Part shown: piece after piece, positions 29,079-59,038 of the stretch
Numbering within the stretch: position 1 is the stretch's first letter
How the letters are laid out: each line of letters starts with the position of its first letter
Assembly: GCF_014196535.1 (NCBI RefSeq)
Contig: NZ_JACIDU010000018.1
Location: forward strand, 1-64,000
Origin: Allorhizobium borbori
GTDB taxonomy: Bacteria; Pseudomonadota; Alphaproteobacteria; Rhizobiales; Rhizobiaceae
Direction of reading: 5' to 3'
Length of the DNA stretch: 64,000 nt
The notes under the pieces: model-generated
What the model was told of the DNA's origin: nothing
What the model saw: the letters and a program-made list of their open reading frames with translations, nothing else
Database searches by the model: none
Made by a program: the position numbers and the translations under genes

Positions 29079-30479
29079 ATGGCATATCGTCAGATTGCGG
29101 CGGGAACGACCTATCGTTTCGACGATCTGAAGTCGCTGATGGCGAAAGCCACGCCCGAACGGTCCGGCGACCAGCTCGCCGGACTGGCAGCCGAAGGCCC
29201 GGTGGAGCGTCTGGCGGCGCAGATGGCGCTTGCCGACCTGCCGCTCAGGACCTTTCTCGAACAGGAGCTTATCGCTTCGGATGACGACGAGGTTTCGGCA
29301 CTGATTGCCCGGCAGCACGACATGGATGCCTTCGGTGCCGTTTCGTCGCTGACCGTTGGCGAATTTCGCGAATGGCTTCTCAACCCCGCAGTCGGCCAGC
29401 CGGAACTGGAAGCCATCACCTGGGGGCTGACGCCGGAAATGGTGGCGGCAGTGTCGAAGATCATGCGCCTGCAGGATCTGGTCACCGTTGCTGCAAAGCG
29501 CGAGGTCATTACCCGTTTTCGCAACACGATCGGCCTGTCCGGGCGTCTCTCCACCCGCAATCAGCCGAACCACCCGACCGACGATTCCAGGGGTATCGCG
29601 CTCTCGGCCATCGACGGGCTGCTGCTGGGCAGCGGCGATGCGGTGATCGGCGTTAATCCGGCAACCAGTGCGGTGCCGGATTATATCCGTGTCGTGCAGT
29701 TGCTCGATGACTTGCGGCAATGGCTGGATATTCCGACCCAGACCTGCTGCCTCGGCCATGTGACCACGGCAATCCGGGCTATGGAACGGGCGGCCCCGGT
29801 CGATCTGGTCTTTCAGTCGATTGCCGGGTCGGAGAAAGCCAATGCCGGCTTCGGTGTCGATCTCGCCGTACTGCGCGAGGCACATGAGGCAGGGCTGGCG
29901 CTGAAGCGGGGTACGCTTGGCGACAATCTGATGTATTTCGAGACGGGGCAGGGCGCCGCGCTCTCCGGCGATGCTCATTTCGGCGTGGACCAGCAGACCA
30001 TGGAGGCTCGCGCCTATGCGGTGGCGCGTGAATTCTCGCCACTTCTCGTCAACACGGTCGTCGGCTTTATTGGTCCGGAATATCTCTATAACGGCAAGCA
30101 GATCATCCGGGCTGGTCTTGAAGACCACTTTTGCGGCAAGCTGCTCGGCCTGCCCATGGGGTGCGATGTCTGCTACACCAACCATGCCGATGCCGATCAG
30201 GAAGACATGGATGTACTGTTGACCATGCTATGCGCGGCCAATGTCAACTTCGTCATCACTGTGCCCGGCTCGGACGACGTGATGCTGAACTACCAGACGC
30301 TTTCGCATCACGATTCGATCTATGCCCGTGAAACGCTTGGACGTCCGCCTGCTCCGGAATTCGAAGAATGGTTGCGCAATGTCGGCCTGACGAATGCCGA
30401 TGGCCGGTTGGCAGACACGCCCGCGCTGGTGACACGCGCCTTGCGGGAACTCGACGTTCTCGAACAGGATGGTGCCTGA
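29079..30479 (+). CDS. eutB: Ethanolamine ammonia-lyase large subunit
   Basis: A 466-residue EutB, the substrate- and cobalamin-binding TIM-barrel subunit that splits ethanolamine into acetaldehyde and ammonia with adenosylcobalamin. Length and motifs match the family: GLSGRLSTRNQPNHPTDDSR, DLVFQSIAGSEKANAGFGVD, GLPMGCDVCYTNHADADQED. The start ATG at 29079 follows the PotC gene directly. There is no eutA reactivase, no acetaldehyde dehydrogenase and no microcompartment gene nearby, so this is the free-enzyme type of system and the aldehyde product must be handled elsewhere. Confidence 0.95.
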   Translation: MAYRQIAAGTTYRFDDLKSLMAKATPERSGDQLAGLAAEGPVERLAAQMALADLPLRTFLEQELIASDDDEVSALIARQHDMDAFGAVSSLTVGEFREWLLNPAVGQPELEAITWGLTPEMVAAVSKIMRLQDLVTVAAKREVITRFRNTIGLSGRLSTRNQPNHPTDDSRGIALSAIDGLLLGSGDAVIGVNPATSAVPDYIRVVQLLDDLRQWLDIPTQTCCLGHVTTAIRAMERAAPVDLVFQSIAGSEKANAGFGVDLAVLREAHEAGLALKRGTLGDNLMYFETGQGAALSGDAHFGVDQQTMEARAYAVAREFSPLLVNTVVGFIGPEYLYNGKQIIRAGLEDHFCGKLLGLPMGCDVCYTNHADADQEDMDVLLTMLCAANVNFVITVPGSDDVMLNYQTLSHHDSIYARETLGRPPAPEFEEWLRNVGLTNADGRLADTPALVTRALRELDVLEQDGA

Positions 30480-31273
30480 TGAGCAAACAGCGTCCGTCCC
30501 TGATCACCAAGGCGCCGGAACTTCTGGAATGCCTGAAGGCGGCGACGGAAGCCCGCATCGCGCTTGGCCGCTGCGGGCCGGGTTTGCCAACCGCCGCCGT
30601 CCAGGGTTTCCTTCTCGATCATGCGCGGGCGCGCCAGGCCGTCTGGCGTCCGCTCGATGTGGATGGACTGGAGCGGAACCTGACGGCTTGCGGCGGGGTG
30701 GTGGTGCATGCCGCCAGTCGGGTGGTCGACAGGGCCGAGTATCTTCGCCGCCCCGATCTCGGGCGAGCGCTCTCCGAAAAGAGCCGCCGAGCGCTTGCGG
30801 CAAAGGCAAGTGAATGTGACGTCGCGTTTGTGATTGCCGACGGTCTCTCGGCCACGGCTGTCGAGATCAATGCCGCGCCGCTGGTTGCAGCCCTTTTGCC
30901 CCTGCTGGCGGAGCAGGACTTTTCGGTCGGGCCGGTCACGATTGCGACCCAGGCCCGCGTTGCGTTGGGTGACGATGCTGGCGTTGCCCTTGGTGCGCGG
31001 ACGGTGATCGTCATTATCGGCGAGCGTCCGGGGCTTTCCGCTGCCGACAGCCTCGGGGTCTACATGACCCATGCGCCGGAAGCTGGCCTGCCGGACTCGC
31101 GGCGCAACTGCATATCGAACATCCGCGACGGCGGCCTCCCTGTCCCGGAAGCCGCTGCCAAGGTCATGTCCCTGCTTCTGGCCATGCGTGCACAGGCGAC
31201 CAGCGGCGTCGATCTCATCGAGCAGGAGGATGGTATCCCGTTAGTGCCGGATGCCCGCGATCAGCGTCTTTGA
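30479..31273 (+). CDS. eutC: Ethanolamine ammonia-lyase small subunit
   Basis: A 264-residue EutC, which forms the cobalamin-binding interface with EutB. Motifs include TEARIALGRCGPGLPT, DFLLDHARARQAVW-like text (here FLLDHARARQAVW), CDVAFVIADGLSATAVEINA and SDRRNCISNIR-like LPDSRRNCISNIRDGG. The ATG at 30479 shares one base with the eutB stop. It is the last gene of the operon; the next gene is convergent. Confidence 0.95.
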   Translation: MSKQRPSLITKAPELLECLKAATEARIALGRCGPGLPTAAVQGFLLDHARARQAVWRPLDVDGLERNLTACGGVVVHAASRVVDRAEYLRRPDLGRALSEKSRRALAAKASECDVAFVIADGLSATAVEINAAPLVAALLPLLAEQDFSVGPVTIATQARVALGDDAGVALGARTVIVIIGERPGLSAADSLGVYMTHAPEAGLPDSRRNCISNIRDGGLPVPEAAAKVMSLLLAMRAQATSGVDLIEQEDGIPLVPDARDQRL

Positions 31274-44021: not shown

Positions 44022-44153
44022 ATGTCATCTACCATCAAAGCGCGTCCTCAGGCGGGATTCGCGTTCGGGTCGTGTGCGTTGGTGAAAGTGGATTTGCCGG
44101 GGGGCGGAAATGAAGTGTGCCGGGTTGAGCAAGCGTCGGGGCGGGGATCATGA
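44022..44153 (+). CDS. Possible 43-residue leader peptide before the autotransporter
   Basis: ATG at 44022 has AGGAAA at 44011-44016 and opens a 43-codon frame ending at a TGA (44151-44153), overlapping the start of the autotransporter gene in another frame. It may be a translated leader that sets translation of the downstream gene. It resembles no protein I know, and it may be chance. Confidence 0.25.
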   Translation: MSSTIKARPQAGFAFGSCALVKVDLPGGGNEVCRVEQASGRGS

Positions 44154-47100: not shown

Positions 47101-48648
47101 GTTACCGTGGGGAACGGGGCTTTCCTTGGCGGCAACGGCGCGATTGGTGGTTTGTCACTGTTATCGGGTGGAACGCTGGCGCCGGGCAACTCCATCGGCA
47201 CCCTTACGGTCAATGGGAATGCCAACCTTGCCAGCGGTTCGACCTATGCGGTCGAAGTGGATGGCAACGGCAATGCCGACCGGCTGGCAGCCACGGGTAC
47301 CGTCACGATCGGCAACAATGCCAATCTTCTCGTCACGCCGGAAAATGGCACGGATACCGGGGCGACCTATGCGCTCAACACCCAATATACCATCATTACC
47401 GCAGATGGCGGCGTGACGGGGACGTTTGACAACGTAACGGAAAACTTCGCGTATCTGACAGCGGCGGTCGAGAAAAGCGTCGATCAGAAATCGATGTTCC
47501 TGACGTTGAACCGAACGACGACCGATCCGGGTGCTTTCGCCGCGGCGGTTTCCACGCGAAACGCGAAATCTGCCGCCAATGCGGTCGAAGCGCTCGGTTC
47601 GGGTAATACGCTGTATGACAAGGCGCTATACCTGAGAGCGGATGAAACCCAGACGGCTTTCGCCCAGCTCTCAGGCGAGCTGCATGCGTCTGTCGGGGCA
47701 GCCCTGACGGAACGCAGCCGCTTCAGTCGCGATGCGATCCTCAACCGTCTGCGCGATGCCTTCGCGCCGGAAACGCCGGCCGGCTCTGGCAATGCAGGCC
47801 TTGGGGCAAACCCGTCGTCGCTTGACGGTGTTACGGTCTGGTCGCATGGGTTCGGTTCGTGGAGCGACTATGGGTCCGACGGCAATGGCGCGGCCGTTGA
47901 TGTCAATGGAGGCGGCCTCCTCATGGGTGCCGATACGCGCGTCGGCGACAATTGGCGTTTCGGTCTGGCCGGCGGTTACGGCCAGGATCGGGTTTCGGAG
48001 AATGCGCTCGATGCCTCTGCGGATGTGGGCAGCTACTACATCGCCGCCTATGGCGGCACGACGGCGGGCCCGGCTTCTTTGCGCTTTGGTGCCGTTCATG
48101 CGCTGCAGAATGTGGAAAGCCGACGCGCGATCTCCTTCTCTGGCTTCACGGATAGTCTCAAGGGCGATTATGACGCATCCACCAGCCAGATTTTCGCGGA
48201 AGGCTCCTGGCGTTTCGATTTCGACCAAACGCATGTCGAACCCTATGCCAATCTGGCCTACGTGAATACGCGTACCGATGGCTTTGCGGAAACCGGCGGT
48301 GCCGCGGCGCTTTCGTCTTCCTCGCGCCATTACGAGCAGGTCTATTCCACGGTCGGGCTTCGCGTCGGACATGACTTTATGCTGGAAGACATGACCGGCA
48401 AGGTGACGGCGGGGATCGGCTGGCGTCATGCTTTCGGCGATATGACGCCGGACACGGACCTGTCATTCGCAAGCGGTGGCGGCTTTACCGTGGCCAGCAC
48501 CGGTCCGGCACGCGACGCAGCGTTGCTCGATCTCTCCTTCGGTTTCGATTTGACAGAAAAGGCGTCTCTGTCGCTTGGCTATAATGCTGTGCTCGGCGAA
48601 CGCATCGCGGATCAGGGGGCTACGGCCAGGCTCGGGATCAGGTTCTGA
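44110..48648 (+). CDS. Large autotransporter adhesin (type Va secretion)
   Basis: A 1512-residue type V secreted protein. A long presequence ends in the signal peptide CSTSMLALILGGALAQPAFA (about residue 52). The passenger has two repeat classes: about ten T5SS/PEP-CTERM-type repeats of roughly 50 residues (core TxTGTGSxW then YVGNxGxGxLxVxNGATV) over residues about 95-690, then five autotransporter beta-strand repeats (LTLSGANTYAGGTTISGGTL) over about 710-1000. Residues about 1240-1512 form the outer-membrane barrel (VWSHGFGSWSDYG to ARLGIRF, ending in Phe). The start ATG 44110 has only a GGGGCGG ribosome site. No cleavage residues or catalytic triad were seen, so adhesion or surface coating is the likely role. 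Confidence 0.88.
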   Translation: MKCAGLSKRRGGDHEKRRLGSGVRVRWNEAVLCSTSMLALILGGALAQPAFADSVFWNGAAGGNWFSDANWVWDGHTPTAGDNAYINSNGPLLASGTHGYAGGLFIGTNLTGTLGIDGQLTTTTATLGNSAGASGSVSVSGIWSLGGALYVGNEGDGAVTVTGGDVSAGTTYLGAGLGGSGTLTVESNGSFGTGGLYIGYAGTGGAPGAVGGDGILTVTSGDVSTDVAVIADGVGSTGTATISGSSSSMTNAGAFVVGGGGVGSLVVENGATVDNSVSTTIGNLASSAGSSIVVRGAGSTLQDTGALIVGNSGAATLRIENQAMATSNGSIIGRHSTSSATVTGTGSEWSTGDLRIGGDSNDAGGTSGDGTLNVTAGGAVTSTSARLGDVAGMEGEAIVDGASSRWEVTSGSLEIGRSGSGSVTIRNGATLETIHALLGSNAGAEGTATITGTGSSWAASGNIYVGNVGNGDLSVLNGATVTSAAGYIGTDAASNSSVTINGASSEWSMTEPFIAGYMGDATVTLGAGGRISALQGTLGDMAGSSGTMTVTGAGSNWNAFVDNSIAYSGYMNVGRFGDGDLTVSSGGSVTGYRLYIGNETGSNGTVLLTGTGSEIEMASRLYIGAYGNGSLTVQDGARLAASDIRIAYDAGVTGSLNIGAASGQTAAAAGTLDAGGIAFGAGDGKLVLNHTGTAYALSADISGDGRVRVENGTTTLSGTNTYTGGTLISGGTLIGNSGGSFGTGAIVNNAALVVNGGGTLSNGISGSGSFEKAGSGTLTLSGANTYAGGTTISGGTLVATTTSLAGDVANYGTLVFDQNTDGTFAGDISGTGNLVKDGTGIVSLTGTLTYRGTTTVRAGKLIGNTSTLGGSVVNEGRLEFDQAFNGTYSSVISGSGSVLKTGAGVLTMTGANSYTGGTTIAAGTLAGNADSFGTGAIVNNGSLVINGAGTFANAVSGAGSLEKIGAGKLTATGNSSYTGSTQVSGGTLSVNGNLASIVTVGNGAFLGGNGAIGGLSLLSGGTLAPGNSIGTLTVNGNANLASGSTYAVEVDGNGNADRLAATGTVTIGNNANLLVTPENGTDTGATYALNTQYTIITADGGVTGTFDNVTENFAYLTAAVEKSVDQKSMFLTLNRTTTDPGAFAAAVSTRNAKSAANAVEALGSGNTLYDKALYLRADETQTAFAQLSGELHASVGAALTERSRFSRDAILNRLRDAFAPETPAGSGNAGLGANPSSLDGVTVWSHGFGSWSDYGSDGNGAAVDVNGGGLLMGADTRVGDNWRFGLAGGYGQDRVSENALDASADVGSYYIAAYGGTTAGPASLRFGAVHALQNVESRRAISFSGFTDSLKGDYDASTSQIFAEGSWRFDFDQTHVEPYANLAYVNTRTDGFAETGGAAALSSSSRHYEQVYSTVGLRVGHDFMLEDMTGKVTAGIGWRHAFGDMTPDTDLSFASGGGFTVASTGPARDAALLDLSFGFDLTEKASLSLGYNAVLGERIADQGATARLGIRF
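44392..46180 (+). repeat. Coding repeats of the T5SS/PEP-CTERM type in the autotransporter passenger
   Basis: About ten degenerate units of roughly 150 bases, each encoding a GTGS.W core, a (L/Y).IG..G.G segment and an NGA.V/GG.V turn. They predict a long right-handed beta-helix stalk. The units differ strongly at DNA level, so expansion is not recent. Confidence 0.7.
46247..47090 (+). repeat. Autotransporter beta-strand (PATR-like) coding repeats
   Basis: Five units encode variants of (T/S)LSG.N.Y.GGT.I..GTL: near 46253, 46440, 46635, 46826 and 47018. They lie between the first repeat block and the linker to the barrel, the usual place for these repeats. Confidence 0.7.
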
Positions 48649-48675: not shown

Positions 48676-50070
48676 CTAGCCGCGCCAGCCGCGCGCGCGG
48701 GCCACGGCATCCTTGAAGCGCTTGTGGTCCTCGTCGGAAATACCGCCGTCTGATGAAAAGACGTGCGCGGCTTTTCGGGCTGCTGAGGCATCGATCCCGC
48801 ACAGTTCGGCAAGTCCGACAGCGGTCAACTCGTGCATGGCGGGCACGGCCACGTCATGTCCGCTGGCGCCGGCCAGCATGCGGGCGAAGTAACGGCTTTT
48901 GGAAAGCCCGCCGTCGATTGATATGGTGGACGATAGCGGCATTGTTTTCGCTGCGGAAGCGATCAATCCGGCGGTCAGCATTGCGATGCCTTCCAGTATG
49001 GCGCGCACCAGATCGCGGCGGTCTGTCGCGTGATCCATGCCGATGAAAAGAGGCGCGGCCCGGCGGTCCCAGTAGGGGGCGGCCAGTCCGGAAAGCGCAG
49101 GCACGAAAGCCAGGCCACGGCTGATTCCGGTCGGCCCCTCGAATATGTCGAGTTCCTCGACATCCGTGTAAAGGCCGATACGATGGGCCCATTCGAGCGC
49201 GGAACCGGCGTCGTAAATACCGCCCTCGATAGCGAACACGGGCGCTGAGCCGCTGAGATTCCAGCCGATTGTTGGCAGGAGATCGCCATCCGCAGGTCGC
49301 GTGGTACCTGCCACGGCCAGCAGGAAGGCGCCGGTGCCGAAGGTGATCTTGCTGTCGCCGGGTTTGCGGCACCCATGCCCGAAAAGGGCGGCCTGCTGAT
49401 CGACGATGGAAACCGCAACGGGCACGCCTTCGATCGTTCCGAACCCTTCATTGGCGGAAACGATGCTTGGCAGACATCTCTTTGGAACGCCGTGCAGATC
49501 GCACAGTTCATCGCTCCACTCACCCGTTTTGAGGTCGAGCAGCCCGGTGCGGGAGGCGGTCGCCAGATCGGTTGCGAATGTGCCGCACAGCCGGTCGAGG
49601 AAGAAGGCATCGGTTGTGCCGAGGCGCAAACGCCCGGCCTTGAACGCCGATGCCGCCGCCGGCAGGTTGCGCAGAATCCATGCCATCTTGCTTGCGGAGA
49701 AATAGGGGTCGAGCGGGACGCCACCGATGTGTCGGGACAGGGTGTCGGCCTCAGGGCCGAGGGCCGTCAGCACGTCAGCGGTGCGTGCATCCTGCCAGAC
49801 GATGACCGGCGAAAGTGCTTCCCCGGTCAGGGCATCCCAGGCCAGACAGCTCTCACCCTGATTGGCGATAGCGATAACGTCCACCGGACCTGCGGCCGCA
49901 AGCACGGCCCGGACATTGGCAAGAAGCTCTTCCGGGTCATGCTCGACCCATCCGGCCTTCGGGTGATGCTGGCCATGCCGCCGGCTGGCGGCCAGATGCC
50001 AGGCTCCGCCATCCGAAATGACAATGCAGCGCGTCGATGTCGTGCCCTGATCGATCGCCGCGATCTGCAT
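48676..50070 (-). CDS. FGGY-family carbohydrate kinase, glycerol kinase-like with altered substrate site
   Basis: A 464-residue kinase aligned throughout with GlpK: DQGTTSTR at the N terminus, HPKAGWVEHDPEEL, SPVIVWQDARTADVL, DPYFSASKMAWIL, IVDQQAALFGHG, ITFGTGAFLL. Of the GlpK residues that hold glycerol, Glu73, Trp92, Tyr123 and Asp224 are kept, but the arginine (Arg83 in E. coli, in NQRETT) is Gly72 (NQGESC). The substrate is therefore probably not glycerol but a larger or differently substituted polyol. It is the last gene of a minus-strand operon and overlaps the previous stop by one base. Confidence 0.82.
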   Translation of the reverse strand: MQIAAIDQGTTSTRCIVISDGGAWHLAASRRHGQHHPKAGWVEHDPEELLANVRAVLAAAGPVDVIAIANQGESCLAWDALTGEALSPVIVWQDARTADVLTALGPEADTLSRHIGGVPLDPYFSASKMAWILRNLPAAASAFKAGRLRLGTTDAFFLDRLCGTFATDLATASRTGLLDLKTGEWSDELCDLHGVPKRCLPSIVSANEGFGTIEGVPVAVSIVDQQAALFGHGCRKPGDSKITFGTGAFLLAVAGTTRPADGDLLPTIGWNLSGSAPVFAIEGGIYDAGSALEWAHRIGLYTDVEELDIFEGPTGISRGLAFVPALSGLAAPYWDRRAAPLFIGMDHATDRRDLVRAILEGIAMLTAGLIASAAKTMPLSSTISIDGGLSKSRYFARMLAGASGHDVAVPAMHELTAVGLAELCGIDASAARKAAHVFSSDGGISDEDHKRFKDAVARARGWRG

Positions 50071-51299
50071 CAGCTTTCCTCCCTGAAACGGAAATGGACA
50101 TGATTGGCTTCCGTCACGCCCGCCGGCATCGGTACGAGCACGCGGCGCTCCGGTGTCCATAGTCCCGAACGTTCGAAAACCGTCCGGCCATCCACTTCGA
50201 GCATAAGGCAGCCGCGCGCGCGTCGCGTGAACCGCAACTGGAAGCTGGACAACGCATTATGGGGGCCGCCTCCCTTTCGCAACAGGTTTGGAACGACGAG
50301 TTTGACGGGATCGTCATGAAGGACGGCTATCGGGGCAGTCTCTACGGGCTGTTGAAGCAGGTCCCGTGCAATGGCGGTGCCGACGGCGCGCCCTTCGCGA
50401 AATGCCCATCCACCTGTTTCAATCGGTCGGAGGACGTTTCCGGCCGCAAAATAGAGGGGGTTTGCACAGCGCCCGTCCTGATCGACCGCAGGGCCTCCTG
50501 TGTCTGTATCGAGCGCCATGCCAGCGTTGCGTACCAGTGCCGCCTCCGGCGTGAACTGGCCGGTGAGGAGAAGCCCGTCGCATTCCAGGACCATTTCATT
50601 GCCGTCCTCCTGCACGATCCGTATGGCTTCGACCCGCTGGCGGCCGATGATATCCACCACGCGTGCGCTGGGATAAAACGGAACACCTGCCAGCCGGGGG
50701 AGCCAGTTGAAGGGTGCGCGCGCCAGCGGGTGCGGGGTTGTCTCGACCATCGCGACGGGACGGGCGCCGTGGGTGAGGCAGGTCAGAAGCGCGGACTGGG
50801 ACACAAGTTCCGATCCAAGAATGACCGGGCGTCTGAAGGGCATGAGGCCATGGAAGGCCACATAGGATTGCAGGGTGCCCGTGGTGACGATCCCGAGCGG
50901 CCGGTCGCCCGGCAGAAGGCGAGCGGAGCGCGGGGCCTCGCGGGCACCCGTGGTTACAAGGATGCGGCGCGCCAAAAGGCTTTCCACACCTTGCGCGTTG
51001 GAAACGGTCAACCTGCCGTCAGTGCCGAGATCGACCACGGAGTGCCCGGGCCGCACATCTATTCCCGCTTGCAGCGCTGCGCTTTCCAGCTTTCGGCCAT
51101 AGGCGCCGCCGATATAGATGCGTCCGAATTCCAGCATGCCGAAAGGCGAGTGGCCGCAATGGCGTGTCGCGCCGCCAAGGGTCTGCTCGCGATCCAGCAG
51201 GATAACCCGTTCCACGCCCTGCCGGCGCATGGCGATGGCTGCCGCGACACCGGCGGGCCCACCGCCTATTACAATTGCGTCCGCATCCGGCCTCGTCAT
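50070..51299 (-). CDS. FAD-dependent oxidoreductase (GlpA-associated, HcnB/opine-oxidase-like)
   Basis: A 409-residue pyridine-nucleotide-disulfide-type flavoprotein: FAD site VIGGGPAGVAAAIAMRRQG, the group motif GGATRHCGHSPFG (family form GGxxxxCxHxxFG), second dinucleotide site around VILGSELVSQSALLTC, and an ATG-like AAGNVLRPIETGGWAFREG near residue 300. In other bacteria such proteins are encoded beside GlpA-like dehydrogenases and pass electrons onward; subunits of opine oxidases and hydrogen cyanide synthase are related. The C-terminal 75 residues are not familiar. It overlaps both neighbours (4 bases with the GlpA-like gene, 1 with the kinase). Confidence 0.78.
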   Translation of the reverse strand: MTRPDADAIVIGGGPAGVAAAIAMRRQGVERVILLDREQTLGGATRHCGHSPFGMLEFGRIYIGGAYGRKLESAALQAGIDVRPGHSVVDLGTDGRLTVSNAQGVESLLARRILVTTGAREAPRSARLLPGDRPLGIVTTGTLQSYVAFHGLMPFRRPVILGSELVSQSALLTCLTHGARPVAMVETTPHPLARAPFNWLPRLAGVPFYPSARVVDIIGRQRVEAIRIVQEDGNEMVLECDGLLLTGQFTPEAALVRNAGMALDTDTGGPAVDQDGRCANPLYFAAGNVLRPIETGGWAFREGRAVGTAIARDLLQQPVETAPIAVLHDDPVKLVVPNLLRKGGGPHNALSSFQLRFTRRARGCLMLEVDGRTVFERSGLWTPERRVLVPMPAGVTEANHVHFRFREES

Positions 51300-52705
51300 A
51301 GATCGTCCTTTCCAGGCACATCCAGAGCCGCTTCGAAGCGACCCCTGGTCATTTCGGCCAGCCGTGCGTTGCAGTAAAAGCCCTGGCAGCGCCCCATGCC
51401 GGCCCGTGTGCGCCTGCGCAATCCGCCGAAGTCACCGGGCGGAAGCGGGCTGTTCAATGCCGCCTCGATTTCGCGTTTCGTAACCAGTTCGCAATGGCAG
51501 ACGATCTCGCCGTGATCAGGCTTCTGCCAGTCTCGCGGTTGGGTTTCCGTCAGGTTCGGCATGCCGGGCGTGGGCGGTGAATCCGGAGCTGCTGGCAGGG
51601 ATGCGAAGGTTTCGTAGAGGCCGAGCGCATGCTGGCCAAGCCCGAGCGCGGCGGAAAGCCCTGTCGAACGGATTCCACCCAGCGTGATTGCCCTTTTCTC
51701 CGGCCGAACCGCGATACGATATGCCTTCTTCTCAGAAGCAGGGCGAAGGCCGGCATAGACGGCCGTCACGGGCATATCGGCAAGTGCGGGTATCAGACGC
51801 CCGGCGTGGTCCTTCAGCATCTCCAGCGTTGCGGTTTCCACGGTGGCCCGCGTGCGGTCTTCCTGTTCCTCCGCAGTCGGGCCAACAAGAACATTGCCGA
51901 AGGCGGTGGGGCAGATCACGATTCCCTTGGTGATTTCGGTGGGTACGGGCAGCACGATCTTCGGAACATGGCGGGCGGCGGCCTTGTCCAGAACGATGAA
52001 TTGCCCCTTGCGCGGACGGATCTCGAACTCCGGCTCGAAGCCCAGACGGCTGTCCACGACATCGCCGAACAGGCCGGCTGCGTTGACGACGGCACCGGCC
52101 TTGATGATTCCCTGTGTCGTTTCCAGATGCCACTCGCCTTCGAACCGGCCTGAAAGCACCTCGCAATTGCGCAGAACCGTGGCGCCGAGCGCCATGGCCT
52201 GGGTAATGTAGGCAAGGGGCGCCGACCATGGGTCGATGACATGCTCTCCCATCACCTCGACGGCAGCCTGAAGCGTTTGTGAGAGGGCAGGGGCCAGACC
52301 TCGCGCCGTGGCGGCTGAAATGACGCGCAGCGCCGCAATGCCGTTTTCAACGCCCTGCGCGGCGATCGCCTCCAGCATTCCAGCCTGCTCCGGTGTCCAT
52401 GCGCAGACAAGGGCGCCGGTCTCCACGATGGACAGGCCGAGATCACCGCAAATGGAAAGATATTCCTCGCGACCGGCACGGACAAGCTCCAGTTCCAGAC
52501 TGCCGGCGGGTGCGTCGAAACCCGTATGCAGAATGGCACTGTTTGCCTTGGATGCGCCGGACAGGATATCGCTGCCCTTTTCCAGAAGCACGACTTTCGC
52601 TCCGGCGAGCGCAAACCTGCGGGCGGTCGCGCATCCGACCACGCCGCCGCCGATGATCGCGACATCATGGAACTCCGCTCCGCCGGGCGGGGCAATTTTA
52701 CACAT
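51296..52705 (-). CDS. GlpA-like FAD dehydrogenase with C-terminal [2Fe-2S] (BFD-like) domain
   Basis: A 469-residue flavoprotein. N-terminal DAO-type FAD fold (VAIIGGGVVGCATARRFALAG; SGASKANSAILHTGFD), a middle lobe with IVNAAGLFGD-like text (VVNAAGLFGDVVDSRL) and PTEITKGIVICPTAFGN, and a C-terminal BFD-like [2Fe-2S] domain with CHCE and CQGFYC cysteines. GlpA oxidises glycerol 3-phosphate; here a related phosphorylated alcohol made by the adjacent kinase is the likely substrate. AAGGAAA precedes the ATG at 52705. It starts 29 bases after the transferase gene. Confidence 0.82.
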   Translation of the reverse strand: MCKIAPPGGAEFHDVAIIGGGVVGCATARRFALAGAKVVLLEKGSDILSGASKANSAILHTGFDAPAGSLELELVRAGREEYLSICGDLGLSIVETGALVCAWTPEQAGMLEAIAAQGVENGIAALRVISAATARGLAPALSQTLQAAVEVMGEHVIDPWSAPLAYITQAMALGATVLRNCEVLSGRFEGEWHLETTQGIIKAGAVVNAAGLFGDVVDSRLGFEPEFEIRPRKGQFIVLDKAAARHVPKIVLPVPTEITKGIVICPTAFGNVLVGPTAEEQEDRTRATVETATLEMLKDHAGRLIPALADMPVTAVYAGLRPASEKKAYRIAVRPEKRAITLGGIRSTGLSAALGLGQHALGLYETFASLPAAPDSPPTPGMPNLTETQPRDWQKPDHGEIVCHCELVTKREIEAALNSPLPPGDFGGLRRRTRAGMGRCQGFYCNARLAEMTRGRFEAALDVPGKDDL

Positions 52706-52734
52706 CTGATTTTCCTTGTTCCGCCAGATGGCGG

Positions 52735-54402
52735 TCATATGAGAAATGTCACGCCTTCATCCGCCAGCCCGCCGCCGAGTGCGGACACTGTGCCGTCGGC
52801 GCGCCAGCAGGCGGCGCCGGTCATCTCGCCATCGTCGCCAAAGGCGATGGCGTTCATGCCACCTCCGATATGCGCGACGGCTCTGGCATCGTGCCCTCGT
52901 AAACGCATCGCTTCGACATGATGGGCGAATGCAGGCTCCAGTTCGATATGGCCGCCATCCGTCCACACGCGCGGCGCTTCGACCGCTTCCTGCAGGGACA
53001 TGCCGTGATCAATGAGGTTGACGATTGCCTGCATGGCGGAGGGAAAGATGCGCACGGCACCCGGCAGACCGAGTGCGAAGGCAGGCCGGCCCCCTTTCAG
53101 CACGATCATCGGCGCCATGCTTGTCGGCACGCGCTTGCCCGGCGCGATGGAAAGCGCCTTGCCCGGATGCGGGTCGAAATTGTGCATGTAATTGTTGGGA
53201 ATAATCCCCGTATCGGGCACCATGAAGCGCGCGCCGAACAGACCATTGATCGTATGCGTTGCCGAAACGATATTGCCGTCACGGTCGGAAACGGTCACAT
53301 GCGTGGTGTTGTGGCTTTCGTAAGCCGGTAGAGCACTGATGGCGCCGCCAACCTGCCTCAACCGCGCACGGGCTTGCGCCGCATAGGCTTTGGATGTGAA
53401 CCGGTCCACCGGAATGTCGACGAAATCGGGATCGCCGGAAGCGGCCCGACGATCCTCGAAGGCAATCCTGATGACCTCGAGAAGAAGATGGATACGCTCG
53501 GCATTGTCGAACCCCATGCCCGCCAGATCGTAGGCTTCAAGCATGTTGAGCATTTCCGTGACATGGACGCCCGAAGAGGCAGGCGGCGGCGGGCCGACAA
53601 TTTCGTGGCCCCTGTAGCTACCTGTTATCGGTGTGCGTCTGACAGGGCGATAGGCCCGCAGATCATCCATGGAAACCTTGCCTTCCGGACCTTGATCGAG
53701 AGCCAGCCTCGCGACAAGCGCAGCGCCAAGTGCGCCTCCATGCAATGCGGAGGCTCCCTGTTTTGCGATCAATCGCAGGCTTTCGGCATAATCGCCCTGA
53801 ACCAGCCTGCTGCCTGCGGAAAGCGGAGAGCCACTCGGTAGGTACAGCTTCGAAAGGACGGTATCCTGCAACATATCGGCCGCATGCTGGCCAATTGTGC
53901 CGACGAGATAGGATGACACGGCAAAGCCGTTCTCGGCATAGCGGATTGCGGGCATGAGGAGGTCGGCGAAAGGGAGCCGTCCGTGGCGCTCATGCAACAT
54001 GCACCAGCCAGCGAGGTTGCCGGGCACCGCAACGGATGCTGCGCCGAACTGGTTTCGCCGCCCGGCTGCCTCGATATAATCCGGGCCGCTGTCTGCCACG
54101 GGCGTGAACATTTCCGGCGTCGCAGCAGCCGGGGCCGACGACAGCATGTCTATAACGAAGTGTTCGCCGCTGCCGAGCCTCACGTGGGAAAGTCCGCCAC
54201 CGGCGATGCCGACCATCATCGGCTCCACCACGGTCAGCGCGAACAGGGACGCAACTGCTGCATCGATCGCATTGCCCCCGGCCGCCAGCATTTCATGACC
54301 GGCAGCCGAACCCAGCGGATGGTTCGTCACCACGACGCCGCCCGTACCGCTTGCTGGTCGCTTCCTGCATGTGAAGGGTAAAGGCATTCCGCGCGAACTC
54401 AT
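52735..54402 (-). CDS. ggt: Gamma-glutamyltransferase-like N-terminal nucleophile hydrolase
   Basis: A 555-residue GGT-family proenzyme. The autoprocessing site is readable in SHNTTHVTVSDRDGN; the new N-terminal nucleophile would be Thr366. Other family motifs: TNHPLGSAAGHEMLAAGGNAI near the N terminus, GPPPPASSGVH, and the SMAPMIVLKGG segment of the small subunit. There is no signal peptide, so the enzyme is probably cytoplasmic, like GGT-like acylases or hydrolases of imported gamma-glutamyl compounds. ATG at 54402 has GGAGAAG upstream and is preferred to ATG 54417. It is the first gene of the four-gene operon. Confidence 0.85.
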   Translation of the reverse strand: MSSRGMPLPFTCRKRPASGTGGVVVTNHPLGSAAGHEMLAAGGNAIDAAVASLFALTVVEPMMVGIAGGGLSHVRLGSGEHFVIDMLSSAPAAATPEMFTPVADSGPDYIEAAGRRNQFGAASVAVPGNLAGWCMLHERHGRLPFADLLMPAIRYAENGFAVSSYLVGTIGQHAADMLQDTVLSKLYLPSGSPLSAGSRLVQGDYAESLRLIAKQGASALHGGALGAALVARLALDQGPEGKVSMDDLRAYRPVRRTPITGSYRGHEIVGPPPPASSGVHVTEMLNMLEAYDLAGMGFDNAERIHLLLEVIRIAFEDRRAASGDPDFVDIPVDRFTSKAYAAQARARLRQVGGAISALPAYESHNTTHVTVSDRDGNIVSATHTINGLFGARFMVPDTGIIPNNYMHNFDPHPGKALSIAPGKRVPTSMAPMIVLKGGRPAFALGLPGAVRIFPSAMQAIVNLIDHGMSLQEAVEAPRVWTDGGHIELEPAFAHHVEAMRLRGHDARAVAHIGGGMNAIAFGDDGEMTGAACWRADGTVSALGGGLADEGVTFLI

Positions 54403-54417
54403 TGAAGGCTTCTCCAT

Positions 54418-54887
54418 TTGAACACATTGCCCGGAAGCGGTCGCCTTGCATGGGGGCAAGAGGCTCGGCCGTTGAATGTGCGAGTCTAGAATGACGCACG
54501 CATGGCGGAAAGGCAACAAATATGACTGATACAAGGGAAATTATAAACCGAAAACCACATTCAGTCATTTAATGTTGGTGATTTGCATTTTTTAATTGTT
54601 ATATTTGGTCAAATTGTGTGCTTTCTGCGTATTTTTTGCCCTGAGTGACCGAAAGGCGAATATTTTCGCATATTATGATTGCCATTCAAAAGCGCTGTGT
54701 TACTGAATAATGGCCATACGAGCATCAGACCGAGCATTGCGGAAGAACTCTCTGGTGTTGGGTGAACAATAATTGACCGAATAGTCAAATCGGCAATGAG
54801 GGGAAGCATTTCAGGATTTTCTGAACCGCGGGGCCGCGCTGTGGACGATCGCTGCCACCATCGCCGTGACCATGAATGGAGCAATAC
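54418..54887. promoter_or_regulatory. Divergent control region between ggt-kinase operon and TRAP operon
   Basis: This 470-bp AT-rich region holds several copies of TGAC(C/T)GA(A/T): 54523-54530 (TGACTGAT), 54559-54567 (reverse of TGACTGAAT), 54646-54653 (TGACCGAA) and a palindrome at 54774-54787. Both flanking operons start here. No gene is present. Confidence 0.6.
54774..54787. promoter_or_regulatory. Putative DeoR-type operator before the TRAP genes
   Basis: TGACCGAATAGTCA has TGAC/GTCA arms and lies 100 bases before dctP. It shares arms and the CGAAT centre with the palindrome before the DeoR gene at 57822. Confidence 0.5.
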
Positions 54888-55883
54888 ATGACCAGACCCC
54901 TATTTCGAGCCATCTTGACGGTTGCCGGTGTGGCAATGCTTTGGGCATCGCAGGCGGAAGCGCGCAACCTCAAGGTCGGGCATTTCGGTTCTCCGTCGAC
55001 CCCGTTTAACGATGGCATCGAGTTTTTTGTGAAGAAGATCGAGGACGTTTCCGGTGGTGAAATCACCGCAACAAACTTCCCCTCGGGCCAGCTCGGCAAC
55101 GAAGCGCAGCAGATCGGCGCTCTTCAGGGCGGGCTTCAGGAAATCCTGATTACGTCCTCCACCAACCTGATCAAGTACAATCCCCGTTTCCAGCTTATCG
55201 ATATACCTTTCGCCTTCGCGGACGATGCGGCGACGGACAGGGTTCTCCTCGGATCGGTCGGCCAGACCATGCTCGATGGCCTGGCAGGCTCCAACATGGT
55301 TGGCCTGACCTTTATCGACAACGGCTTCCGCGACCTGACGAATTCCAAGCATCCGATCACGAAGCTTGGGGATTTCAAGGGGTTGAGCTTCCGCGTTATC
55401 GGTGCGCCAGTGTTCATCGATACCTTCAAGGCGCTTGGCGCCAACCCGGTGCCGATGCCGTTTCCGGAAGTGTACACCGCCCTCGAGACGCACACTGTCG
55501 ATGGTCAGGACAATCCGCTCCTGACGGCACGCGACCAGAACTTCTATGAGGTTCAGAAATACCTGACCCATTCCAAGCACGCTTACTCGGCGCTTGTGTT
55601 CCTGATCAGCGAGCCATTCTGGAAGAGCCTGAACGACAAGGAGCGTCAGCAGATCAAGGAAGCCGCGGACGCCGCCGCTCTCGAAAACCGCAAGTTCATG
55701 CGTGCGGCCGTCGAGCAGGCGCGCACGTTCCTCGCTACGGAAGGAAAGATGGACGTCGTGGAATTCGCGCCGGAAGCGCTTGTTGATATTCACGCTGCCG
55801 TCGAGCCGGTTGTGAAGGGTATGGTCACCGACGCTCTTCGTCCGCTCTACGAAGAAATGCAGGCTGCGGCCAAGGCCAACTAA
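54888..55883 (+). CDS. TRAP transporter solute-binding protein, DctP family
   Basis: A 331-residue periplasmic protein with signal peptide MTRPLFRAILTVAGVAMLWASQAEA. DctP features are clear: SGGEITATNFPSGQLGNEAQ, ITSSTNLIKYNPRFQLIDIPF, FKGLSFRVIGAPVFIDTF with the conserved carboxylate-binding arginine in FRV, and PFPEVYTALETHTVDGQDN. The ligand therefore probably has a carboxylate group. The ATG at 54888 has GGAG six bases upstream. It opens the TRAP-DeoR transcription unit that is divergent from the transferase-kinase operon. Confidence 0.9.
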   Translation: MTRPLFRAILTVAGVAMLWASQAEARNLKVGHFGSPSTPFNDGIEFFVKKIEDVSGGEITATNFPSGQLGNEAQQIGALQGGLQEILITSSTNLIKYNPRFQLIDIPFAFADDAATDRVLLGSVGQTMLDGLAGSNMVGLTFIDNGFRDLTNSKHPITKLGDFKGLSFRVIGAPVFIDTFKALGANPVPMPFPEVYTALETHTVDGQDNPLLTARDQNFYEVQKYLTHSKHAYSALVFLISEPFWKSLNDKERQQIKEAADAAALENRKFMRAAVEQARTFLATEGKMDVVEFAPEALVDIHAAVEPVVKGMVTDALRPLYEEMQAAAKAN

Positions 55884-55945: not shown

Positions 55946-56455
55946 ATGCGCGCCTTGCGCCTTTGCGAAATATTGCTGGAAGTGATCGTTGCCGCGCTGA
56001 TGCTGGCTCTGGTCGTCATGGTTTTCACCAATGTCGTCCTGCGCTTTGCGTTCAGTTCGGGGATTGTGGTGACAGAAGAACTGTCCCGCATCACCTTGAG
56101 TCTGCTTGTCTTTATCGGTTCTGTCCTTGCGCTTATACAGCATGGACACATCGCCATGACAATGATGATCGACCGCTTTTCACCCGGATTGAAGAAGGTC
56201 GCGGTACTCGCTACGGGCGCGATCATGGTCTATTGCAACTGGCTTCTGGCAGATGGGTCCTGGGTGCAGGCAAAGCTGAACTTCAGTTCCAATTATCCCC
56301 TCTCCGGTTTGCCGTCAGAGACGATTTATGTCGTCGCGGCCATTTGTGGCCTGCTCATGACTATCATTATTCTCGCAAGAATGCTGCTCATTCTCGTGGG
56401 GCGGATGCCTCCGGAGCAGTTCTTCCAGTCCGCTTCGGCCAATCTCGGGGAGTGA
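55946..56455 (+). CDS. TRAP transporter small membrane subunit, DctQ family
   Basis: A 169-residue protein with four hydrophobic helices and the DctQ wording VVMVFTNVVLRFAFSSGIVVTEELSR and GHIAMTMMIDRFSP. It pairs with the DctM protein encoded 4 bases downstream. GGGAG precedes the ATG. Confidence 0.88.
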   Translation: MRALRLCEILLEVIVAALMLALVVMVFTNVVLRFAFSSGIVVTEELSRITLSLLVFIGSVLALIQHGHIAMTMMIDRFSPGLKKVAVLATGAIMVYCNWLLADGSWVQAKLNFSSNYPLSGLPSETIYVVAAICGLLMTIIILARMLLILVGRMPPEQFFQSASANLGE

Positions 56456-56459
56456 AGCC

Positions 56460-57737
56460 TTGACCCTTATCGTCTTTCTCGGCTCGCTCATGGGCTGTAT
56501 TGCGCTCGGCGTTCCCATTGCCTGGGCATTGACGGCGTGCGGCGTCGCACTGATGTTCTATCTGGATTTCTTCAACTCCCAGATCGTCGCCCAGAACCTC
56601 ATCCTTGGCACCGACAGCTTCATCCTGCTTGCCATCCCTTTCTTCATCCTTGCCGGTGAACTGATGAACAGAGGCGGCCTGTCCCGCCGGATTATCGATG
56701 TTGCCATATCGGGTTTCGGGCACATCCGCGGCGGTCTCGGCTATGTCGGCATCTGTGCGTCGCTGCTGATGGCTTCCCTTTCCGGTTCCGCTATCGCCGA
56801 CAGTGCGGCGCTCGCTGCAATCCTGCTGCCGATGATGAAGCAAAGTGGTTATCCGGCCGGTTCTTCCGGTGGTCTCCTCGCCGCAGGTGGCATCATCGCG
56901 CCTATCGTGCCGCCATCGATTGCGCTTGTGGTGTTCGGCGCGGTCGCAAACATATCGATCAGCGGCCTGTTCATCGCTTCGATCGTTCCCGGCCTGCTGA
57001 TGGGGCTTTCCCTTGTGGTGACCTGGTATTTCGTTTCCCGGGGCGGCGACTACAAGCGTCTTGAAAAAAAGCCGCGTGCCGAAACCATGGCGTCGCTGTG
57101 GCGGGCAATCCCGGCGCTTTTTCTGCCTTTCGTGGTGATTGGCGGTCTGAAGGTCGGCATTTTCACGCCGACGGAAGCGGCTGTCATCGCGGCGGTTTAT
57201 GCAGCCGCAGTCGGCGCGTTCGTCTATCGTGAACTGGATATGAAAGGCTTTTACGAGGCGCTTGTCGCGTCCGGCAAAACCTCGGCCGTGGTCATGTTCC
57301 TCGTGGGAACATCGATGGTGTCTGCCTGGCTGATCACCGTCGCCAATCTTCCCACCCAGATCGTTTCCTTTCTGTCGCCCTTCATGGATAGTCCGCGCAT
57401 GCTGGTGTTCATGATCATCATGCTGTCGCTGCTTCTGGGTACGGCACTCGATTTCACACCCCTCATGCTGATCCTGATGCCGATCATGATTCCCATCTGC
57501 AAGAAGGCCGGCATCGACCTGACCTATTTCGGCGTCGTTTTTACCATTTCTGGCGCGCTGGGAATGCTGACCCCGCCTGTTGGCAACGTGCTGAATGTGG
57601 TTGCGGGCGTCGGCAAGGTTGGACTGGACAAGATCACCTGGGGGGTCATGCCGTTCCTTCTTGCGCAAACGATCGTTCTGCTGCTGCTCGTCGCGTTCCC
57701 GGAAATTGTGACCGTGCCGCTTTCGTTGATGCGATAA
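56460..57737 (+). CDS. TRAP transporter large membrane subunit, DctM family
   Basis: A 425-residue sodium-coupled permease with 11-12 helices. Family motifs: FILAGELMNRGGLSRRIIDVA, ASLSGSAIADSAALAAILLP, GGIIAPIVPPSIALVVFG and the late helices with LTPPVGNVLNVVAGVG. It starts with TTG at 56460, four bases after the DctQ stop, preceded by GGGGAGTG. A terminator hairpin follows the gene, before the DeoR gene. Confidence 0.92.
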   Translation: MTLIVFLGSLMGCIALGVPIAWALTACGVALMFYLDFFNSQIVAQNLILGTDSFILLAIPFFILAGELMNRGGLSRRIIDVAISGFGHIRGGLGYVGICASLLMASLSGSAIADSAALAAILLPMMKQSGYPAGSSGGLLAAGGIIAPIVPPSIALVVFGAVANISISGLFIASIVPGLLMGLSLVVTWYFVSRGGDYKRLEKKPRAETMASLWRAIPALFLPFVVIGGLKVGIFTPTEAAVIAAVYAAAVGAFVYRELDMKGFYEALVASGKTSAVVMFLVGTSMVSAWLITVANLPTQIVSFLSPFMDSPRMLVFMIIMLSLLLGTALDFTPLMLILMPIMIPICKKAGIDLTYFGVVFTISGALGMLTPPVGNVLNVVAGVGKVGLDKITWGVMPFLLAQTIVLLLLVAFPEIVTVPLSLMR

Positions 57738-57876: not shown

Positions 57877-58650
57877 ATGCGCCCGAACGAACGCCGTCTG
57901 GAAATTCTTGCGCTGGTCAATCGCCTTGGTCTGGCAACTGTCGAGGATCTGTCCGAGAAACTGGATGTATCCAGGGAAACTGTCCGTCGCGACCTGACGG
58001 CGCTCGAGGCTGCGGGGACCATCCGCAAATATCACGGCGGCGCTCGGGCATTGGACAACAGATCCGTTCCGGATGACGTTGAAAGCCCGTTCGATCAGCG
58101 CATGACCCACAATATGGACGGTAAGCGGGCGATCGCGGATGCGGCGAGCCAGCTTTTTCAGCGCGGAGATACCATCTTTATCGATACGGGCAGTACAACG
58201 CTGGCCGTTGCCGAAAGTCTTTCGCACATTCCCTCTCTTCTGGTCATTACCAACTCGCCGAAAATTGCCGCTATCATCGCCGGAAACGGCAGCAGCAAGG
58301 TGTTCCTGATTGGCGGCGCTTATGGCGTGGAACCGGCAGAAAGCCTCGGACCGCTGGCACTCGAACAGATAGCCAAGTTTCGTGCCCAGCACGCTATCCT
58401 CACCGTAGGCGCCATCGATGCGGCGGGGGTCATGAACTTTGATCTGCAGGAGGCGGAGGTTGCCCGGGCCATCATAGACCGCGTGGAGACGGTCACGGTG
58501 GTTGCAGATCATACGAAGTTTGGCCGGCGTGCCGTCTTTGAGGTCGCTCCGCTTTCCCGGATTTCGCGTATCGTCACGGACAGCGTGCCCACCAGAGAAA
58601 TCAGCAGCGCCATTGAGGCTGCTGGCGCTTCGCTGATCATAGCAAAGTGA
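57877..58650 (+). CDS. DeoR-family repressor (GlpR-like)
   Basis: A 257-residue DeoR regulator: helix-turn-helix ATVEDLSEKLDVSRETVRRDL (residues about 19-39), then the ribose-5-phosphate-isomerase-like effector domain (FIDTGSTTLAVAESL; ITNSPKIAAIIAG; VVADHTKFGRRAVFEV). DeoR proteins are usually released by a phosphorylated sugar or polyol, which suits a regulon containing a kinase. It follows the TRAP genes behind a terminator and has its own palindromic operator. The ATG at 57877 has GAAAGCGAG upstream. Confidence 0.88.
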   Translation: MRPNERRLEILALVNRLGLATVEDLSEKLDVSRETVRRDLTALEAAGTIRKYHGGARALDNRSVPDDVESPFDQRMTHNMDGKRAIADAASQLFQRGDTIFIDTGSTTLAVAESLSHIPSLLVITNSPKIAAIIAGNGSSKVFLIGGAYGVEPAESLGPLALEQIAKFRAQHAILTVGAIDAAGVMNFDLQEAEVARAIIDRVETVTVVADHTKFGRRAVFEVAPLSRISRIVTDSVPTREISSAIEAAGASLIIAK

Positions 58651-59038
58651 AATCCTGAGCCCGCGCCCGTCTTCAGACACGCCCGCGCGAGCTCCATCGC
58701 ATCGATGGGAAACCTTCGGCGTATCTGCTCCCAGGTCAGAAGATTGAAGTCGCTCCCTGCGGCTGCGTTATCAAAGACCGATGACAATGGCCAGGCGCGC
58801 GAAGCCTGGTCGGTTCGGGTCGCGGGGGGCTTTGCCTTGATCGGGAAGGTCGTTGTGCAGTCCGCAACAGTCGTGGACCTTGCTATTTTCTTTCATTGTG
58901 CATCGCAACACGCGAAGACGTCCAGAAGACGTTACTAGAAATTGCGTTGCTAATTCATAATCGATTAACCAAGGGATGTTCTTCTTCAATCAGGTTTGGT
59001 TTTGCGTCCGTTCAAGTCTGTGTTCGAGGAGAAGAACG
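58651..59038. other. 388-bp region upstream of the second autotransporter
   Basis: No gene is recognised. The last 100 bases are AT-rich (ATTGCGTTGCTAATTCATAATCGATTAACC region at about 58936-58970) and probably carry the autotransporter promoter. A GAGGAGAAG ribosome site at 59026-59034 serves the ATG at 59039. Confidence 0.5.

Follow-up and report, generated by a model that had tools for sequence, protein, structure and literature searches.

A clade of GlpK-like FGGY kinases with glycine in place of Arg83 and its conserved flavoenzyme cassette, a candidate system for amino-alcohol catabolism

Genetic organization of the kinase locus in Allorhizobium borbori

The window analyzed in this study comprises 64,000 nucleotides of the A. 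borbori genome (contig NZ_JACIDU010000018.1, positions 1 to 64,000 of the forward strand), and the features relevant to the kinase gene are compiled in Table 1. The minus strand of the kinase region is an open frame, while the same frame of the plus strand is interrupted by stops. The gene belongs to an operon with the order gamma-glutamyltransferase, GlpA/GlpO-like oxidoreductase, Pyr_redox_2 oxidoreductase and kinase, in which successive genes overlap by 4, 4 and 1 bases, and the TRAP transporter genes and the gene of the DeoR-type regulator are located on the opposite strand. A sequencing artefact or a pseudogene is ruled out by the open frame, by these overlaps and by the presence of Gly72 in every alignment row examined.

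Table 1. Genes and sequence features of the kinase locus and of the distant eutBC region (model scores in bits)
Feature	Coordinates	Strand	Remarks
FGGY kinase, GlpK-like, Gly72 for Arg83	48676..50070	-	464 aa
Codon of Gly72 (NQGES motif; NQRET in glycerol kinases)	49855-49857	-	
Pyr_redox_2 FAD/NAD(P)-dependent oxidoreductase, second flavoprotein of the cassette	50070..51299	-	409 aa; stop overlaps kinase start by 1 base
GlpA/GlpO-like FAD oxidoreductase (DAO) with C-terminal BFD-like [2Fe-2S] domain	51296..52738	-	480 aa
Gamma-glutamyltransferase	52735..54534 (start tentative)	-	TIGR00066 401.1, cut-off 357.85; stop and next start overlap by 4 bases (ATGA)
TRAP substrate-binding protein DctP, divergent from the cassette, non-EtoX type	54876..55883	+	TIGR00787 230.6, cut-off 175.05
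TRAP small permease DctQ	55946..56455	+	
TRAP large permease DctM	56460..57737	+	
DeoR/GlpR-family regulator	57877..58650	+	
Ethanolamine ammonia-lyase EutB, about 20 kb from the kinase, membership in the system uncertain	29079..30479	+	NF011649 665.7, cut-off 554
Ethanolamine ammonia-lyase EutC, membership in the system uncertain	30368..31273	+	NF003971 287.7, cut-off 230

The cassette and transporter region is flanked by two genes (44110-48648, plus strand, 1512 aa; 58976-62179, plus strand, 1067 aa) that specify long repetitive proteins, judged by eye to be autotransporter-like adhesins. Elsewhere in the window, the gene at 2535-3920 (minus strand), by eye a DUF1338-type 2-oxoadipate decarboxylase, adjoins an aldehyde dehydrogenase gene (959-2491, minus strand), which suggests lysine catabolism. 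The eutBC genes (29079-31273, plus strand) follow a transporter that resembles, again by eye, spermidine/putrescine ABC systems, and the genome has two EutB proteins in total, one encoded in this region (665 bits) and one on contig C9 (188137-189480, 727 bits).

Substrate pocket of the kinase and definition of the clade

The deduced kinase belongs to the FGGY family, since it exceeds the gathering scores of both domain models (152.2 versus 28.8 bits for PF00370 and 90.9 versus 27 bits for PF02782); it matches only FGGY_N and FGGY_C, and no choline/ethanolamine kinase domain (EC 2.7.1.82 fold) was detected in it. The score against the GlpK model TIGR01311 is 372.2 bits and thus below the cut-off of 590.35, and the scores against the sugar kinase models are likewise below their cut-offs (XylB, 143 versus 380.25; GntK, 91.4 versus 648.55; the others lower still), with the set of family models compared containing none for erythritol kinase. 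The AlphaFold model of the protein (mean pLDDT 94.1) has its best structural match in the glycerol kinase of T. kodakarensis (Z 50.3, rmsd 1.7 over 455), followed by a Z score of 49.2 with the E. coli glycerol kinase; the nearest solved structures are hence glycerol kinases.

In GlpK, the substrate is contacted by Arg83, Glu84, Tyr135, Asp245 and Phe270, and a bridge between Arg83 and Glu306 is involved in closure (PMC3245297 and PMC2680290, both in part). Arg83 is one of five specificity positions, the residues of which are described as identical and very highly conserved among GlpKs (PMC3245297, in part). The preliminary description of the locus had proposed that the kinase keeps the substrate residues Glu73, Trp92, Tyr123 and Asp224 and carries Gly72 at the position of Arg83, and both statements were confirmed. 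The translation contains Q71, G72, E73, W92, Y123, D224, Q225 and F249, and in an alignment of 63 clade rows with 59 rows of canonical GlpKs position 72 is glycine in all of the former (63/63), whereas it is arginine in all of the latter (59/59). The residues E73, W92, Y123, D224, Q225 and F249, which provide the equivalents of Glu84, Trp103, Tyr135, Asp245, Gln246 and Phe270 in the clade kinases, are invariant in both sets alike.

Two further exchanges, absent from the preliminary description, accompany that at position 72. Position 223, located just before the catalytic Asp (Gly244 in GlpK numbering), is valine in 63/63 clade rows versus glycine in 59/59 GlpK rows, and position 284 is glycine in 63/63 clade rows versus serine, alanine or proline in the GlpKs; F157 and A77 are likewise invariant within the clade. 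The acid at position 282, equated with Glu306 of GlpK by motif alone, is glutamate in 59/59 canonical rows and glutamate or aspartate in 62/63 clade rows. Arg149 is the sole new conserved arginine found in the clade (62/63; the GlpKs mostly have alanine, leucine or cysteine and show arginine in 4/59), and it could in principle compensate for the lost Arg83, a point against the amino-alcohol reading given below. Because the loss of Arg83 coincides with the exchange of glycine for valine in front of the catalytic Asp, the pocket looks reshaped rather than simply enlarged. These sequence comparisons support the view that the kinase is a relative of GlpK with a re-tuned substrate pocket.

The relatives were drawn from the best 80 of 587 matches, supplemented by a further set in which loci were obtained for the best 30 of 51; among the 63 clade rows, L012 and L105 stem from the same contig and the gene of L021 has a broken frame, and the other FGGY genes of the A. 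borbori genome (L003-L008) were kept out of both the clade and the GlpK set. The relatives examined fall into two steps, as all proteins with 44-70% identity have the motif (N/H)QGE(S/T) and, after a gap, all those with 41% identity or less have NQRE. When the alignment columns 72, 223 and 284 were omitted, 51 clade rows were still placed on one side of a branch with an SH-aLRT value of 100, in a quick tree calculated without bootstrap and with one long outgroup branch. The exchange of arginine for glycine together with the coupled exchange of glycine for valine, without exception in the rows examined, marks a monophyletic clade of FGGY proteins.

Conservation of the cassette and distribution of the clade

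The kinase, the GlpA/GlpO-like flavo-iron-sulphur protein and the Pyr_redox_2 oxidoreductase form a conserved cassette that is often accompanied by a DeoR-type regulator. In 71 of 74 clade loci, each of the two flavoproteins is encoded no more than 10 kb away from the kinase, and a regulator belonging to one cluster of DeoR-type proteins accompanies the cassette in 35 of 63 loci. The GlpA-like partner carries the cysteines of the BFD motif and has its nearest relative in the GlpO protein of Mycoplasma (125.6 bits), and a His, a Lys, an Arg and a Ser of the type II glycerol-3-phosphate (G3P) oxidase are aligned in 60 of 60 partner proteins; we take these to be the catalytic and phosphate- or anion-binding residues of the oxidase. 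The scores against the models of GlpABC-type proteins are below the cut-offs (124.8 versus 552.8 for TIGR03377; 195.5 versus 460 for NF033460). The Glu of the GPTAE motif in the flavoenzyme was considered as an ammonium binder and dropped, as only two controls were available for this position and Glu is usual there in related oxidoreductases. A polyol dehydrogenase or an aldolase was not noticed, by eye, as a fixed gene of the cassette. In a single case, that of Agrobacterium HAMBI 105, a fructose-bisphosphate aldolase and an FBPase are encoded by the third and the fourth gene behind the kinase, which would fit a triose phosphate as product.

As further observations on the neighbourhood, 8 of 74 loci (L024, L026, L135, L171-L173, L179 and L180) encode a small DUF1937 protein no more than 10 kb away from the kinase, in L171 and L172 directly behind it, and in locus L179, located on a plasmid of Ensifer adhaerens, the annotation predicts an AAC(3) gene for aminoglycoside resistance (17683-18495; 74% identity) at a distance of about 4 kb from the kinase.

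Members of the clade were detected in 51 of 397 sampled genomes of the order to which A. borbori belongs and in 12 of 385 of its class, the Alphaproteobacteria (its own genome being included in both samples), and they occur in Gammaproteobacteria as well, including Providencia and Pseudomonas. Altogether 61 foreign genomes yielded a match, and 20-kb regions (shorter near contig ends) were fetched for 40 of them, with G617 being the contig of L012. Among plasmids, 11 of 12 records with the kinase and 8 of 12 records with the other type of substrate-binding protein described below were fetched. The gene is annotated as 'glycerol kinase' or 'FGGY family carbohydrate kinase' in 9 of the 12 plasmid records with the kinase. 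Among the papers listed in a literature search, none ties an FGGY kinase to an amino alcohol, and a search by two locus tags presumed from synteny to belong to the Pseudomonas locus, a weak test, found no paper that contains them.

The A. borbori genome contains on contig C8 another gene that scores 662.2 bits with TIGR01311 (cut-off 590.35) and accordingly encodes a full GlpK. A GlpK above the cut-off was also found in 31 of 34 other clade genomes, in a test that covered 21 of the 40 fetched foreign genomes and 13 of 22 clade contigs from the list of relatives; the three genomes without a further GlpK are G649 and the metagenome-assembled genomes (MAGs) behind L014 and L018. Since a full GlpK is encoded elsewhere in the genome and the kinase scores only 372 bits, it is unlikely to be the main glycerol kinase of the cell, and a role as the sole glycerol kinase was rejected on account of the second gene.

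Ethanolamine-type genes in the vicinity of the cassette

In 33 of 74 clade loci, that of the window not among them, the 10 kb on either side of the kinase contain a gene for an EtoX-type substrate-binding protein (SBP), EutH, EutB or an ethanolamine-permease-like protein; score thresholds of our own were applied, and several loci extend less than 10 kb on a side. None of the four marker types was found in canonical GlpK loci, be they from clade genomes (0 of 32) or from elsewhere (0 of 58). After removal of near-copies, markers were present in 32 of 72 loci (kinases more than 97% identical removed) or in 29 of 65 (more than 85%), and the comparison of 32/72 clade loci with 0/32 GlpK loci gave a p value of 5e-7 in the Fisher test, which ignores shared ancestry. 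The remaining 41 of the 74 clade loci, including that of the window, have no ethanolamine marker within 10 kb, and this count speaks against an amine as substrate.

The most frequent marker is the EtoX-type TRAP binding protein, which is encoded in 26 of 74 clade loci and whose representative from L158 matches PDB entry 4uab with 464 bits. EutB and EutC are encoded near the cassette in seven of the 74 loci, for instance in Chelatococcus, and EutH in four, namely in two Providencia loci, in an Emcibacteraceae MAG and in Pseudomonas aeruginosa; the EutH of Providencia (L024) scores 639.7 with NF011668 (cut-off 575), and that of Pseudomonas was taken from the annotation of the record. The ethanolamine-permease-like gene of L014 scores 358.7 with TIGR00908 and is thus below the cut-off of 381.75. 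Amine-type neighbours of another kind precede the cassette in L011 and L013, where a GntI-like protein (pre-guanitoxin N-oxide kinase; the L013 copy has 133.9 bits with a cut-off of 357) and an 820-aa protein, by eye similar to dimethylglycine dehydrogenase, are encoded upstream.

An SBP for ethanolamine was reportedly first described by Vetting in 2015. The protein of entry 4UAB is Csal_0678, in which an acidic platform set among aromatic residues holds ethanolamine (PMC12410723, in part), and the homologue EtoX from Phaeobacter binds ethanolamine with a Kd of 7.9 uM (PMC10132767, in part). The 26 cassette-linked SBPs constitute a clade of their own, apart from nine others and 4uab (support 100/100). 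In these proteins the Glu at index 217, taken as Glu220 of the PDB numbering, is retained, and the changes are T175G, F176V, I215F, D218A, T220E and F230A (D218A and F230A in 24 of 26). On the basis of these residues, the cassette-linked SBPs would perhaps bind a sister ligand, which might be larger than ethanolamine.

The two types of SBP are also distributed differently among plasmids, as the close type (72-77%) was confined to records with the kinase (5/5), and all records with the other type (57-62%) lacked a kinase match (12/12). Seven of the eight fetched plasmids with the other SBP are annotated, and six of these seven contain the GS-ALDH-ADH operon of the gamma-glutamylethanolamide pathway; the operon is missing from the Loktanella plasmid, and the Shinella plasmid is the one without annotation. 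Genome G636 encodes both types of SBP, one near the kinase and the other beside a gamma-glutamylating synthetase.

The occurrence of EutB was analyzed in 25 clade genomes, namely that of A. borbori and 24 in which a marker lies close to the cassette (in six of these, EutB itself). EutB was detected in 14 of the 25, some of which had been chosen because EutB adjoins the cassette, and among the 11 genomes without EutB a gamma-glutamylating synthetase is closely related in six and distant in two, with none in three. Consequently, 20 of the 25 clade genomes have another route for ethanolamine, which argues against ethanolamine itself as the substrate of the cassette; ethanolamine was therefore rejected as a sure substrate.

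No EtoX-type binding protein was found in the A. borbori genome. The TRAP permeases of the window are closest to the 2,3-diketo-L-gulonate system, with scores below its cut-offs, and the nearest PDB chains of the binding protein indicate no ligand. DctP-type TRAP binding proteins typically bind carboxylates (PMC4646407, in part). The gamma-glutamyltransferase occurs in four clade loci (three of them distinct), all without the EtoX type, and in L132, which has the same gamma-glutamyltransferase as the window, eutBC adjoin the cassette, whereas they are 20 kb away in the window. In A. borbori the DctP-type TRAP system and the gamma-glutamyltransferase might thus stand in for the transporter of the free amine, and their combination suggests that the amine would be taken up in conjugated form, bound to a gamma-glutamyl or similar group, and set free afterwards.

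Proposed function of the cassette and alternative explanations

From the gene neighbours and the pocket residues we infer that the small cassette rather probably serves the breakdown of a small alcohol that bears an ammonium group, with the kinase, accordingly an amino-alcohol kinase of some kind, acting first. In GlpK, Arg83 and Glu84 would clamp the hydroxyl groups, and Arg83 would aid domain closure by its salt bridge to the acid. With Gly72 the guanidinium group is gone and the acids remain, so that the ammonium group of the substrate itself may take its place. The predicted ammonium site would consist of E73 as a lone acidic platform beneath the aromatic residues W92 and F249, which is the same recipe of acid and aromatics as in known ethanolamine binding sites. 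D224 would serve as the base when the kinase phosphorylates a hydroxymethyl group, after which the pair of flavoenzymes would oxidize the neighbouring C-N bond with release of ammonia; in its residues the flavoenzyme corresponds to an alcohol oxidase, with nothing indicating C-N oxidation, and this counts against the proposed deamination.

The first candidate substrate is serinol (2-amino-1,3-propanediol, i.e. 2-aminoglycerol), which would be converted via serinol phosphate to dihydroxyacetone phosphate (DHAP), and the second is ethanolamine, via phosphoethanolamine. Serinol is favoured because it is both a 2-amino alcohol and glycerol-like and would give DHAP without a further enzyme. That a whole glycerol-type module has been re-tuned for serinol, with uptake often by a sister-clade TRAP transporter, phosphorylation and oxidative deamination to DHAP and ammonia, and with the loss of the arginine as specificity switch, is a tentative and on balance doubtful extension of the amino-alcohol reading; serinol is described as a less common metabolite, which tells against it.

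The kinase could instead be a glycerol kinase isozyme in a module of GlpK and G3P dehydrogenase that consumes glycerol released along with ethanolamine when phosphatidylethanolamine or glycerophosphoethanolamine is broken down, with R83G merely lowering the affinity. The GlpK fold at a Z score of 50 and the retained equivalents of E84, W103, Y135, D245 and F270 are in agreement with this explanation, as is the partner flavoenzyme, which is closest to G3P oxidase and has relatives in the canonical GlpK loci L032 and L076; moreover, S. acidocaldarius possesses two GK/G3PDH pairs of similar activity (PMC11962113, in part). Metallophosphodiesterases that are GpdQ-like by eye and match each other at 136 bits would also fit the use of glycerol or glycerophosphodiesters, and thereby argue against an amine; they are encoded near the kinase in L018 (6088-6897, minus strand), whose genome is among the three without another GlpK, and in L045 (12251-13072, minus strand), yet no more than 2 of 74 loci show this arrangement. 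With a part of E. coli GlpQ as query, no match was obtained in the clade loci; a search of three whole genomes, which revealed GDPD genes in all three and none near the cassette, is uninformative on this point. Since the specificity residue R83 is replaced by glycine in every clade row examined and 31 of 34 genomes already hold a GlpK above the cut-off that the kinase falls far below, an isozyme appears unlikely.

A reversed order of reactions, in which the flavoenzymes deaminate the free amino alcohol first and the kinase then phosphorylates dihydroxyacetone (DHA) or glycolaldehyde, is quite improbable. Pairs of DAO and Pyr_redox_2 proteins resemble enzymes of the sarcosine oxidase type, opine and sarcosine oxidases act on amines, and GlpK accepts DHA; furthermore, a Streptomyces enzyme turns serinol into DHA (PMC3222319, in part). 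A neutral carbonyl substrate, however, gives no reason for the loss of the arginine, and the conservation of the presumed anion-binding Lys, Arg and Ser in 60/60 partner flavoenzymes suggests a phosphorylated substrate. The preliminary description had favoured a bulkier polyol or a substituted glycerol, the pocket being opened by the loss of the arginine. Taken as a kinase for a larger polyol, for instance a tetritol, or for a glycerol substituted at oxygen, this reading we regard as very improbable. Erythritol kinase works together with a GlpD-like flavoenzyme, which would suit a polyol, as would the relationship of the window's TRAP permeases to the diketogulonate system, albeit below the cut-offs. 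Erythritol kinase is also an FGGY protein and was confined to Alphaproteobacteria in one survey (PMC3245297, in part). The alignment does not support the notion of a pocket that was opened to fit a bulkier polyol, as the coupled V223 refills part of the space and the acids are kept (E73 in 63/63 rows, E or D at position 282 in 62/63). Moreover, the recurrent markers in part of the clade are of the amine type and no fixed polyol dehydrogenase or aldolase was noticed by eye; an erythritol or xylitol kinase was likewise dropped, as no supporting neighbours were noticed by eye. What stands of the earlier substrate reading is the re-tuned relative of GlpK, with a substituted glycerol still a live option.

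If the amino-alcohol reading is correct, the cassette would provide a new route for the nitrogen and carbon of amino alcohols into triose phosphates, i.e. an undescribed breakdown pathway, and its kinase would define a class of FGGY kinases for cationic substrates, the first with such a substrate. It would also represent a clean case in which the loss of a single charged residue marks the change from a polyol to an amino alcohol. Many genes of the clade would then probably be misnamed, and the reading turns them into a directly testable pathway.

Comparison with known systems

The kinase is a variant within the known FGGY family, possibly with a new pathway. With GlpK (TIGR01311) it shares the fold, the two FGGY domains, the catalytic Asp and the equivalents of Glu84, Trp103, Tyr135, Gln246 and Phe270, and it differs from GlpK by the exchange of Arg83 for Gly, by that of Gly244 for Val in all 63 rows, by the score below the cut-off and by a neighbourhood that is partly of the amine type. 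The GlpA/GlpO-like partner has the DAO family in common with the type II L-alpha-glycerophosphate oxidase (Mycoplasma GlpO, PDB 4x9m) and with GlpA, and it shares with the former the His, Lys, Arg and Ser residues mentioned above (60/60); unlike the Mycoplasma enzyme, it carries a BFD [2Fe-2S] domain, as E. coli GlpA does, and has a second flavoprotein as partner.

The EtoX TRAP/gamma-glutamylethanolamide pathway of Phaeobacter and Chromohalobacter is related to the cassette by its SBP, which represents the sister clade of the cassette-linked SBPs, and in Paracoccus albus GS-ALDH-ADH genes like those of this pathway adjoin the TRAP genes of the cassette. Unlike the cassette, the pathway activates ethanolamine by gamma-glutamylation, without a kinase, and has a regulator of the RpiR type. 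Of the 74 loci, seven have EutBC and four have EutH close to the cassette; in contrast to the cassette with its kinase, EutBC constitutes a B12-dependent lyase route that proceeds without phosphorylation.
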